DNA from: a virus
DNA: 39,370 nt
Reading direction: 5' to 3' (one strand)
Virus record (IMG/VR): IMGVR_UViG_3300021341_000063
Coordinates: 1-39,370 of that record
Each line of letters begins with the position of its first letter. Positions within the stretch are counted from its first letter, which is position 1. Positions 620-25,095 of this stretch are shown one piece after another. The notes beneath the pieces were generated by a model, which searched no databases, was not told the DNA's origin, and worked only from the letters and a program-made list of their open reading frames with translations. The position numbers were made by a program, and so were the translations under genes.

Positions 620-693
620 GCGGCCGTAGCTCAGTGGTAGAGCAGGAGACTTCCACTCTCTGTGCGCCAGTTCGATTCTGGTCGGCCGCTCCA
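620..693 (+). tRNA. tRNA-Gly (anticodon TCC)
   Basis: A full cloverleaf can be drawn. The acceptor stem is GCGGCCG paired with CGGCCGC, the D arm GCTC/GAGC, the anticodon stem GGAGA/TCTCT with loop CTTCCAC (anticodon TCC, reading GGA), and the T arm GCCAG-TTCGATT-CTGGT. Discriminator T is followed by an encoded CCA at 691-693. All stems are intact. GGA is a rare Gly codon in GC-rich genomes, so a phage-supplied tRNA could help, but it could also be a host tRNA beside an attachment site. No copy of its 3' end is seen near the integrase. Confidence 0.93.
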
Positions 694-22002: not shown

Positions 22003-22078
22003 TTGGTTGCCGGGGCAGGACTTGAACCTGCGACCTGCGGGTTATGAGCCCGCCGAGCTACCATCTGCTCCACCCGGA
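22003..22078 (-). tRNA. Initiator-type tRNA-fMet (anticodon CAT)
   Basis: A 76-nt cloverleaf with CCA encoded at 22005-22003. The anticodon arm is GCGGG-CTCATAA-CCCGC, carrying the three consecutive G:C pairs (29-31/39-41) that mark initiator tRNAs. The acceptor has a G1-A72 mismatch, matching the required lack of a 1:72 pair, plus an extra U2-C71 mismatch, so only five acceptor pairs remain. The D arm (GAGC/GCTC) and T arm (GCAGG/CCTGC) are intact. It sits in the leader of the late operon, on the sense strand. It may be functional or decaying. Confidence 0.88.
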
Positions 22079-22271
22079 CAAAAGAAAGGCCCGGCAGGGA
22101 TGATACCTCCGGGCACATTGCAGGCGTGTCACTCTCGGCGTTTTCTGAACCTGGGTTCTGAACCGGAGCCCGCCGCCCACCCGCACGGGCCACGGTCTGC
22201 TTTGGCAGAGGGGGTCACCGGCATAGGGCTATTGGGACGCGACGGTAACCGCTGCCGCGCCGATCTGTCAA
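22079..22271 (-). promoter_or_regulatory. Candidate late promoter and leader
   Basis: Overlapping the stop of the NusG-like gene is TTGACA (22271-22266), and 17 bases on is TTACCG, a weak -10. The ~170-base leader before the tRNA contains two copies of GGTTCAGAA (minus strand) 13 bases apart (22143-22151 and 22156-22164); the second lies in the palindrome GGTTC-T-GAACC. It could hold a late promoter plus a site for an antitermination factor. Evidence is sequence pattern only. Confidence 0.35.
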
Positions 22272-22900
22272 CCTGTCTTGCGCAACGGAACCAGATCGCC
22301 GGTCGACGCCTCGACGCTTGTCTCGCGTCCGAACAGGCTGAACCGCACCATCGCACCGCCGCTGGCCCGAAGTTCCACCACCTCGCAGGTGAACCCGGAG
22401 AACGGCCCGCTGCGGAACAGCGCGCTATCCCCCTCTCCCACCAGACGCTGCCGGCGGCGGCGTGCCCGCTCTGCCTTGCGCGCGGCGTCCGCTTCGGCGT
22501 CCACCTTGCGCATCTGGTGGATGGCGCGCAGCTTCTTCGGTTCCAGCGCGCCCCATGTGCCATCGGACCGGCACAGCGCGCCGGTGATGAACGGGCCGCT
22601 GGTGACCGCATGCACCACCGGATCTCCGGGGAAGCGCGCAAAGACATACCCTGGCAGATAGCGGCGCTGATATTCCCGCATCGCGCCGAACCGTTTCGCC
22701 TTGCGCGTCAGCACCGGGTGGAAGGCGTAGACCCCCCGCAACCGCAGCCATGCCTCCGCCTGATCCTCTCGCTGCGGCACGACACGCAGCGCGTACCAGT
22801 ATGGCTTGCCGCGCCGAAAGATCGGTGACCTGTCGGCGCCCTGCCCGTCCTTGCAGTAGCGCGCCTCGATGTCCCTGACCAGTTGTTCCATCCCGTTCAT
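22268..22900 (-). CDS. NusG-like transcription elongation/antitermination factor
   Basis: A 210-aa NusG paralogue. An NGN domain spans about residues 33-130 (KPYWYALRVVPQREDQAEAW, then YQRRYLPGYVFARF), followed by a charged Arg/Lys linker and a KOW-type domain (EGDSALFRSGPFSGFTCEVV). It should bind RNA polymerase and promote processivity, as NusG and RfaH do. The start at 22900 has GAGGGG about 6 bases upstream. It lies between the replication genes and the late operon, where lambdoid phages place Q, suggesting it controls late transcription. Target sites are unknown. Confidence 0.85.
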   Translation of the reverse strand: MNGMEQLVRDIEARYCKDGQGADRSPIFRRGKPYWYALRVVPQREDQAEAWLRLRGVYAFHPVLTRKAKRFGAMREYQRRYLPGYVFARFPGDPVVHAVTSGPFITGALCRSDGTWGALEPKKLRAIHQMRKVDAEADAARKAERARRRRQRLVGEGDSALFRSGPFSGFTCEVVELRASGGAMVRFSLFGRETSVEASTGDLVPLRKTG

Positions 22901-22967
22901 GCCCGTTCCCCTCACTCCAAGATTTAGCGTCGCCAACATTCCAACCCACAACATCCTGATTTCATGC

Positions 22968-23300
22968 GGGAAGGTAGGGAGGATAGCCGTTCCGCAATCG
23001 CGCTATCCTCCCGCTGTTTCTCAAACATCAACCAATTGGTTTCATTCGAACTTTTCGATCCAAAGGGAAGGAAGGGAGGATAGGGAGGCATTTTGTAGTG
23101 TTTTTTAAGATTTCCTGTTCCACCCATTTTACCGCCATCCCAATGTCGCGCGCGCGCATACGCGTAGGTCAGATTTTGCCTCCCCAGCCTCCCCACCCTC
23201 CCGCAGCGACGCGCAAGCCTCTGTGTCACAACAGTTTTCCCCCTGACCCCGTAAATGCGCTATCTTCCCGCCGCATCGCTCTACCTTCCCTAGCCTCCCG
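22968..23300. repeat. Iteron-like array of 9-bp repeats; candidate replication origin
   Basis: A noncoding interval (22901-23289) holds many copies of GGGARGnTA, many joined end to end with 9-bp period. On the plus strand they lie at 22968-22986 and 23065-23090; inverted copies are at 23003-23012, 23178-23203 (degenerate), 23259-23269 and 23281-23299, the last overlapping the helicase stop. The copies at 22977 and 23002 form an 11-bp inverted repeat. Between arrays lie an AT-rich stretch (23089-23115) and a 20-bp alternating CG/CA/TA tract (23147-23166). The position beside the helicase gene suggests an origin. Confidence 0.65.
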
Positions 23301-25095
23301 TGAAATCTGTATCGGGGTACGGGGCATCGCCTGACTGCGCCGCCAGCGGCTTGCCCGAGCTGTCCTTCGGCGCGTCGTCGAACCGCCGCCTGAAGGCATC
23401 CGTGAACCGCAGCCCGACATATTGCGATATGCTGGCCTTACCCTTGGCGAACTGCTTTCCCGTCTCAGGATGCCGCCATGCGCGCGCCTTGGCCGATAGC
23501 TGGCGGGAGAACGTCGTCGGCTTCCACGGGCTCATTCCCCGCTCCATCATGTGCAGCGTGAAGGCATCTCCGAGGACCTTGGAGGTGATCACGTCTCCCG
23601 GATCTCCGGTGATGACGCAGCAGGCGGTGAGGAACATCCCGATCGGGTCGCTTTCGTCGCGATACTCTCGGGTGGCCTCTGTCACCGCCGCCGGCGGCGC
23701 GAGCCCGCCCTCCAGCACCTCCATCAGCCCCTCGATCAGCCAGTTCAGAATGCCGGCCCGCTCCGCGAACAGCTTGTCGACCAGCTCCGGGTCGCGCTCC
23801 GCCTCGGGGATCTGCACGTCGAAGGGCACCAGCAGAACCCGCCGCCAGATACCGTCGTCGGTCCCGCGTATCTCGGGCTTGTGGTTGCCGGACATGGTCA
23901 GCTTGAAGATCGGCCGCACCTCGACAAAGTCGGAGTGCAGGGCACGCACCTGCAATGGCTCGCCGCCGGTCAGTTCCTTGATCAGCCCCTCCTGCAGGCG
24001 CTGGCCTTCGTCCGGCTCCGAGGTGCGCACCATCCGCGCGCCCATCAGCGGGATCAGGTCCGGCGTGGCATCGCCGCCGCCGCGCCGGTTCGAACCGGTC
24101 AGGCTTTCGATCCGCGCGGTCGCGGCATAGCCGCCCATGATCCTGGCAATGGTGTCGACCAGCACGGATTTGCCGTTGGCGCCGGCGCCGTACAGGAACA
24201 CCAGCCGCTGCATCGGCAGGCCGGACATGCTGAGGCCGAACCACCGTTTCAGGAACTCGCGGATCTCGCGGTCCGGCTGGATCCGCTCCAGGAACGCGTC
24301 GAAGGCGTCGTGGCCGGCATCCGGATCGTATCCGGCGCCCATGATCTTGGTCAGGCGCTGCTCGCGCCGGTGGGGTTCCGGGGCGATGTCGCAGACCCGG
24401 CCGCCGCCGTCGGCGCTGGCATCCGTCACCGCGAAGCGCAACACGTGCGACTCCGTGTTGACCACCAGCGGTTCGGCGTCGAGATCGTCAAAGGCGACGG
24501 CCAGCTCGACCCCTGCCTCCTTCATCGCGTTGTCGATGCGGGCGGAATTGCCCGTGGTATTGGCAAAGCTGCGGTGGCGCGAGCGGCGGTCCCTGAGCCG
24601 TTTTTCGACTTCCGAAATCGCGTCGGACCGCTGCTGCAGGCCCGCAACCTCCCGGGCCTGCTCCTCCGACCTGTCCCCCTTGGGGATCGCCAGCAGCTCC
24701 CGCAACCTGCTGGACACGTCCGCCCGGTCGGCCATCGCCGCCTGCTCCGCTTGCGTCATCGGCAGGTGCGGGATCTCGCGCAGGATGAGGTCTGACAGGC
24801 GCTGCGCCTGCCGGCGCACGGCAAGCTGATCTTCGTCCTTGCGCCAATGCGACCCGGACCATGCGAACCACCCGACCCGCGGAACCGACATCACGTCGTC
24901 CCCGAAGTGGGTGACGAACCGCTGGCCGTTGCCGTGGTCGTTGAGCGGCTGCTGCGCGGCCCGGCACAGCCGCTCCACCATGTCCTCCGGAGCGTCGGAC
25001 GGCGGCCCGCCCGGCTGTTCCGGAGAATGGTCCGGCGGCCCGTCCGCGGTCACCGGGTCCAGCCCGGCAAAGGGGTCGTCGTCGTACTCGCTCAT
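23290..25095 (-). CDS. D5/P4-type superfamily 3 replicative helicase
   Basis: A 601-aa protein. The N-terminal half has a D5_N-like region (about 210-290) and a charged helical segment, then an SF3 ATPase with Walker A FLYGAGANGKS (residues 300-310), Walker B-like acidic strand (ARMVRTSEPDEG), and motif C-like MSGNHKPEIRG. A winged-helix C-terminal part follows. It should open the origin and drive unwinding. I see no TOPRIM or AEP primase motif in its N-terminus, so it may be helicase only. It begins with an overlap with the upstream gene and ends in an iteron-like repeat. Confidence 0.88.
   Translation of the reverse strand: MSEYDDDPFAGLDPVTADGPPDHSPEQPGGPPSDAPEDMVERLCRAAQQPLNDHGNGQRFVTHFGDDVMSVPRVGWFAWSGSHWRKDEDQLAVRRQAQRLSDLILREIPHLPMTQAEQAAMADRADVSSRLRELLAIPKGDRSEEQAREVAGLQQRSDAISEVEKRLRDRRSRHRSFANTTGNSARIDNAMKEAGVELAVAFDDLDAEPLVVNTESHVLRFAVTDASADGGGRVCDIAPEPHRREQRLTKIMGAGYDPDAGHDAFDAFLERIQPDREIREFLKRWFGLSMSGLPMQRLVFLYGAGANGKSVLVDTIARIMGGYAATARIESLTGSNRRGGGDATPDLIPLMGARMVRTSEPDEGQRLQEGLIKELTGGEPLQVRALHSDFVEVRPIFKLTMSGNHKPEIRGTDDGIWRRVLLVPFDVQIPEAERDPELVDKLFAERAGILNWLIEGLMEVLEGGLAPPAAVTEATREYRDESDPIGMFLTACCVITGDPGDVITSKVLGDAFTLHMMERGMSPWKPTTFSRQLSAKARAWRHPETGKQFAKGKASISQYVGLRFTDAFRRRFDDAPKDSSGKPLAAQSGDAPYPDTDFTGG

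Follow-up and report, generated by a model that had tools for sequence, protein, structure and literature searches.

The repeat array and its surroundings

The window, that is, the whole stretch of DNA analysed here, is a complete viral record of 39,370 bp. A 332-bp region of it (22968-23299) lies directly 3' of an SF3 helicase gene and carries short iterons of the type GGGARGnTA on both strands, as described in the initial annotation, whose bounds of 22968-23300 are correct. The TAG stop codon of the helicase gene is itself part of an iteron. A NusG-like gene lies on the other side of the array, with a tRNA-Met (CAT; 22004-22080, minus strand) just 3' of it; a tRNA-Gly (TCC; 620-693, plus strand) is found near the start of the record. 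The features of the region are as follows.

22268-22954, minus strand: NusG-like elongation/antitermination protein (Pfam NusG, PHROG antiterminator), directly after the array
22968-22976, plus strand: iteron D3, GGGAAGGTA, exact; outer site of the putative right half-origin, 97 bp from C3, the canonical offset
22977-22985, plus strand: iteron D2, GGGAGGATA, exact; outer site, 88 bp from C3
23004-23012, minus strand: iteron D1, GGGAGGATA, exact; orientation flipped relative to the family geometry
23015-23064, no strand: AT-rich stretch, the lowest-GC 50-mer of the window (34% GC)
23026-23038, plus strand: IHF-like sequence CATCAACCAATTG, one mismatch to WATCAANNNNTTR; off the family's usual position
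23065-23073, plus strand: iteron C3, GGGAAGGAA, one mismatch; inner array, exact 9-bp period
23074-23082, plus strand: iteron C2, GGGAGGATA, exact
23083-23091, plus strand: iteron C1, GGGAGGCAT, assigned by register
23147-23166, no strand: alternating purine-pyrimidine run (Z-prone) of 20 bp in the gap separating the inner arrays, 9 bp inward of B3
23176-23184, minus strand: iteron B3, GGGAGGCAA, one mismatch
23185-23193, minus strand: iteron B2, GGGAGGCTG, one mismatch
23194-23202, minus strand: iteron B1, GGGAGGGTG, one mismatch
23239-23250, minus strand: GGGGTCAGGGGG element between the outer and inner arrays, on one side only
23261-23269, minus strand: iteron A3, GGGAAGATA, exact; 67 bp from B1
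23282-23290, minus strand: iteron A2, GGGAAGGTA, exact
23291-23299, minus strand: iteron A1, GGGAGGCTA, exact; overlaps the helicase TAG stop codon
23290-25095, minus strand: SF3 helicase gene (601 aa; D5_N, P4-type primase_Cterm), the proposed initiator and iteron reader

A motif scan finds seven exact copies of GGGARGnTA in the whole window, all of them within 22968-23299; the chance expectation in 39 kb is 0.52, and the maximum over 100 shuffles is three. When one mismatch is allowed, 11 of the 26 matches in the window fall inside the 332 bp, while those outside are at or below background (27.8 being expected for the whole window). An equal density of the motif elsewhere, which would speak against an origin, is therefore not seen. 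The initial count of about ten copies is a fair one, since seven exact and four one-mismatch copies are joined by a twelfth site, GGGAGGCAT, recognised by its register. The exact 9-bp joins are likewise present, at 22968/22977, 23065/23074/23083, 23176/23185/23194 and 23282/23291. The 20-bp alternating run, CGCGCGCGCGCATACGCGTA, is the only one of at least 14 bp in the window. The AT-rich stretch is real, as the 50-mer of lowest GC content, but it lies between an inner and an outer array and not between the two inner ones. GC skew lends no support to an origin at this place, being mostly negative along the window with no sign change at the array.

Conservation of the layout in relatives

Homologues of the helicase were gathered from viral contigs, prokaryotic genomes and named phages, giving 147 distinct 3' flanks. 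Tandem periodicity with a lag of 9 bp is present in 57% of these flanks and in 0% of both shuffled sequences and upstream coding sequence, and no other lag exceeds 4%. Inverted inner triplets of 3 x 9 bp are fitted automatically in 108 of the 147 flanks, a threshold that none of 100 shuffled controls reaches. The other 39 flanks do not reach this threshold, and the origins that belong to them may be at other places or have diverged too far. The adjacency of the array to the helicase gene is kept in relatives that include phages of very different hosts. Chromosomally integrated prophages likewise have the array together with the helicase.

Followed along the helicase gene in its own direction, the layout of the family consists of A1, A2 (+9), A3 (+21), B1 (+67), B2 (+9) and B3 (+9), and after the core it is mirrored as C1, C2 and C3 followed by D1, D2 and D3. 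The twelve sites thus form two mirror half-origins of 2+1+3 sites each. One relative, L006, has exactly this layout, with offsets of 0, 9, 30, 97, 106 and 115 from each end. Among 86 well-fitted loci, 69-85% have a site at the outer offsets of 67, 88 and 97 bp on either side, compared with 1-2% for control offsets, and the full set of 12 sites is recovered in 36. The symmetry of the window is imperfect, because its D1 is inverted and shifted, as it is flipped in 14 other loci of the 86, and because its IHF-like site is off the family position.

The word itself varies widely among relatives, which have GGGARGnTA, GGGACGAC, GGGTCGTC, GGGCYTGA, CGGCCCGA, GGGCAGA, GGGCCGA or GGGTTGAT in the equivalent sites. 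In the sequences compared, the conserved thing is the layout, not the sequence. A BLASTN search of the region against phages gives no match, since the word drifts and the layout can be reached only by way of the helicase. Coexisting prophages with near-identical helicases occur in isolate 2687453351 (L009, L010 and L015) and in 2734482290 (L011 and L012), and their iteron words are closely similar, not identical (CGGCCCGAA versus GGGCCTGAA). The tandem pattern is confined to the array in the records of G001, G002, G003 and G006, where it occurs six times in each; it is found once more outside the array in G007, and twice more in G005, a prophage host genome.

Repeats with a lag of 9 bp are also found 3' of the helicase in the named phages RcapNL, Pthi1 and AmM-1, and in Methanoculleus virus L4768 (L183), an archaeal tailed virus with a helicase of the same family, whose 9-bp tandem repeat has a word of the TGCCCCA type. 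The rule that an array follows the helicase gene has an exception in RR1-A (L182), where none is present 3' of the gene, and is therefore not universal. Mycobacterium phage Findley (L185) and Staphylococcus phage S-CoN_Ph25 (L184) have tandem signals 3' of the helicase with a lag of 12 instead of 9. The same lag separates two repeats of Lactobacillus phage A2, which suggests a sister arrangement among phages that infect Gram-positive bacteria.

Core and spacer elements

The elements between the iterons are also positioned. In 94% of the 86 loci, the gap separating the inner arrays contains an alternating purine-pyrimidine run of 10 bp or more, which mostly begins 9-11 bp after B3; in the controls, the mean longest run of shuffled sequence is 6.5 bp, and 6% of the spacers have such a run. 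The Z-prone run is thus conserved in position, and its possible roles include Z-DNA formation, flexibility or a site for another protein. The C-D interval is more AT-rich than the A-B interval across relatives (46% versus 57% GC). A GGGG-N3/4-GGGG element between A3 and B1 is found in 87% of the 86 loci and in 5% of the opposite (C-D) spacers; this one-sided element is possibly a priming or polarity signal.

Also between A3 and B1, 59% of the 86 loci have, at a fixed position, a sequence that departs from the IHF consensus by no more than one base, against 1.5% of shuffles. This reading was conceived on L009-L012 and then tested on all 86 loci. Such matches are enriched in the C-D spacer too, partly at the mirror position (38% versus 4.5%). 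In the window itself, the corresponding IHF-like site is degenerate or displaced.

The adjoining SF3 helicase

The initial annotation placed an SF3 helicase gene next to the array, and the assignment of 23290-25095 is borne out by Pfam, with D5_N (67.7 bits versus a cut-off of 22.4) and DUF5906 (33.3 versus 27.6), and by TIGR01613 (Primase_Cterm, P4 family; 227 bits versus 109). Pox_D5 on the C-terminus scores 15 bits, below its cut-off of 21.4. The GxGANGKS (SF3 Walker) motif is conserved in the relatives. The AlphaFold model, with a pLDDT of 90, has a fold like that of the hexameric SF3 helicases ASFV PrimPol and mpox E5, and the helicase profile finds ASFV C962R and 7ola by sequence; we take 7ola to be the SaPI5 primase-helicase. 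Two parts of the protein are of particular relevance to DNA recognition.

23371-23625, minus strand: C-terminal winged-helix domain, residues 491-575, with modelled HTH helices 505-518 and 526-539 and wing 550-564
23413-23442, minus strand: wing residues 552-561, which covary with the iteron word (partial Mantel)

The best PDB match of the C-terminal model is the RFX-DNA complex 1dp7 (probability 0.98, E 0.03), and the next is the tail of ASFV PrimPol. The origin-binding domain (OBD) of P4 is absent among the top fold matches of this model. The P4 OBD, the ASFV tail and RFX have been described as having similar folds (PMC10516667).

Proposed recognition of the iterons by the helicase

Since the word differs among relatives, it can be compared with the protein next to it. 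Over 80 non-redundant loci, the distance between words is correlated with the distance between helicase C-termini when the rest of the protein is controlled (partial Mantel r=0.278, p=0.0005), with a peak at residues 543-553. The highest mutual information with the word is found for residues 555, 525 and 557, followed, after residues 584 and 101, which are outside the winged-helix contacts, by 529, 522 and 560. In the AlphaFold model, the other high-information residues map to the beginning of the recognition helix (526-539) and to the wing (550-564). These two elements together retain the correlation when the rest of the domain is controlled (r=0.278, p=0.0005); when they are controlled in turn, the remaining C-terminal domain has r=0.02 and the tail of the gene, which is nearer to the array, has r=0.04. 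Mere linkage was considered as a cause of the covariation and rejected on these values, because the array-proximal tail has no partial correlation.

The wing alone gives r=0.31 (p=0.002) with the rest of the domain and protein controlled, and its signal is strongest at word positions 4, 7 and 8; the wing covaries with the word, while the other parts of the helicase that were tested do not. Proteins with more than 50% divergence in the N-terminal and AAA+ parts were also compared with their nearest neighbours: when neighbours are chosen by contact residues, the words differ by 2.2 of 8, compared with 3.3 for a random choice and 3.7 when they are chosen by the N-terminal and AAA+ parts. Random residue sets elsewhere fall short of the correlation of the contact set. 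Since this set was defined after the covariation had been seen and the Mantel tests compare related sequences, the figures are support rather than proof. The drift of the word with the wing makes it likely that the helicase itself reads the word. RFX uses its wing to read the major groove, and the C-terminal winged helix of the helicase, as modelled and compared across relatives, would bind the iterons in the same manner, mainly through the wing.

Two neighbouring gene products were considered as readers and rejected: the NusG-like protein, whose gene is near only 7 of the 86 arrays, and a 170-aa protein encoded upstream, whose homologues are near 13 of the 86 and which has no match among phages.

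Alternative functions of the array

Arrays of short sites can be operators, and this one is intergenic and upstream of the NusG-like gene, so that it might be a transcription operator or antitermination site read by that protein or by a repressor. Such a function is improbable, given the scarcity of NusG-like genes at the other loci and the covariation of the word with the helicase wing; nor does the region contain a sigma-70 promoter or terminator pattern, for which reason a promoter or terminator reading was also discarded.

The idea that the small terminase reads the array as a cos or pac packaging site is just as improbable. Terminase genes lie downstream in the window, and in RcapNL (L178, 4906-4973) the cohesive end is found some 300 bp past the 3' end of the helicase gene, which apparently places cos next to the origin. 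However, cos may neighbour the array without being the array, and the wing covariation, the adjacency to the helicase across very different hosts and the rep_origin annotated at the same place in phage A2 all point away from packaging.

Still less probable are RNA or G-quadruplex elements in place of duplex protein sites. The word of the window is G-rich and a single strand of the region folds better than shuffles (z=-3.6), but the better folding follows from the inverted arrays, and several relatives keep the geometry with words that form G-quadruplexes poorly, such as CGGCCCGAA and GGGTCGTCn. On this ground the G-quadruplex reading was rejected, and no Rfam family is found in the region other than the tRNA at 22008-22079. 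Equally remote is a role of the array in partition, as a centromere-like site, or in incompatibility of a plasmid-prophage. Centromeres can have similar iteron arrays, but no partition protein is found among the window ORFs scanned with Pfam, and the array goes with the helicase in chromosome-integrated prophages.

Proposed mechanism of initiation

The initial reading of this region as a replication origin is strengthened by the layout kept in dozens of relatives, by the rep_origin of phage A2 and by the covariation of word and helicase. On sequence grounds, the region, which belongs to a tailed phage, is very probably a replication origin, and we consider it highly likely that the 332 bp are the place where this phage would initiate replication and that the adjoining SF3 helicase recognises them. 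The fold of the helicase and the likeness to the SaPI and A2 origins make an origin of the self-loading helicase type, built of two mirrored halves, the best-supported account.

In such an origin, the SF3 helicase would bind the twelve 9-bp iterons through its C-terminal winged helix, and the mirrored arrays, by analogy with SaPI and SV40 origins, would load two head-to-head hexamers. Once loaded, the hexamers would separate the strands of the core, which is easily distorted, and replication would proceed from it in both directions. A weaker proposition is that, in many relatives, each half-origin is folded by an IHF-type bend between its outer and inner sites; the constant 67-bp length of the spacer would then have an explanation. 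The number of sites in each half, six, would equal that of the subunits of a hexamer and by this analogy suggests one site for each subunit; since only 36 of the 86 loci yield the full dozen, a strict six-per-hexamer reading is not proved. The fullest version, namely a family of origins with a strict 12-site mirror and one site per hexamer subunit, in which an evolvable wing predicts the word and the Z-prone CG run at a fixed distance is the first duplex distortion, is rather doubtful.

Implications

Self-loading replicative helicases are a bacterial parallel to SV40 T antigen. Two questions that they raise are how many subunits are recruited per origin and how specificity changes in evolution. 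Since the sites are countable (2+1+3, mirrored) and dozens of variant pairs of word and wing are available, both are directly testable here. Many unannotated prophages of Rhodobacterales, and phages of other hosts too, can be searched for their origins with this pattern, which would likewise help to foresee whether prophages that live together have an origin in common or avoid that of the other.

Comparison with known origins

Each of the known systems shares some features with the array and has its own distinctive ones. The iteron plasmids of the Rep_3 type also have repeated initiator sites beside AT-rich DNA. Their iterons, however, are direct repeats of 18-22 bp accompanied by DnaA boxes, whereas the array has a 9-bp word, two mirrored arrays and a helicase as initiator; matches to DnaA boxes are at background in the window, with none in the array region. 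The initial annotation was right to set the repeats apart from those iterons, but phage A2 is a precedent for origins of the present kind. In the SF3 origins of SV40 and papillomaviruses, inverted short sites load a double SF3 hexamer, as is proposed here. The SV40 sites are GAGGC pentamers, and the origin-binding domain of these viruses is N-terminal and unrelated to the C-terminal winged helix of the present helicase. Their sites are also many fewer.

The ori of phage P4, with type I iterons, is served by the alpha protein. The present helicase passes the P4-family primase_Cterm cut-off, and in both systems a C-terminal winged helix reads short sites or, here, is predicted to do so. The layout and words of the P4 ori and crr differ from those of the array. 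No second locus like crr is found in the window, where all exact copies and the tandem pattern are in one place.

The SaPI type (Rep/PriRep, Staphylococcus) is similar, by description, in its self-loading helicase and inverted short repeats, and 7ola is a detectable homologue. In SaPI origins, repeats of opposite orientation direct two head-to-head self-loading hexameric helicases (PMC9894130). As in that type, the array adjoins the helicase gene, here starting at its stop codon, and two repeat sets of opposite orientation flank a core, which here contains the CG-alternating run. The covariation of word and wing also lends support to a helicase that would bind the repeats by its C-terminal domain, as the cognate helicase of that type does. 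The fixed 12-site mirror geometry, the 9-bp period and the Z-prone run set the present array apart from SaPI, as does a helicase without a fused primase domain (Pfam).

Lactobacillus phage A2 (NC_004112) has a rep_origin annotated 3' of its primase/helicase gene ORF35, in the same place as the array, and this origin has reportedly been defined by experiment. The two helicases are homologous (33% identity over residues 52-493), and in both phages the origin is directly 3' of the helicase gene and overlaps its end. The A2 origin also has the core word GGGAGGAT, and its AT-rich core is flanked by copies of ACGGGAGGAT in the two orientations. Unlike the array, it has fewer copies, which are 8-12 bp apart without a 9-bp tandem, its core is a plain AT tract without a CG-alternating run, and its helicase gene has a longer product with a large N-terminal part. 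Taken with these systems, the array is best described as a self-loading helicase origin, at which initiation would take place, that resembles those of SaPI, P4 and A2 and is a distinct and highly regular variant of them.
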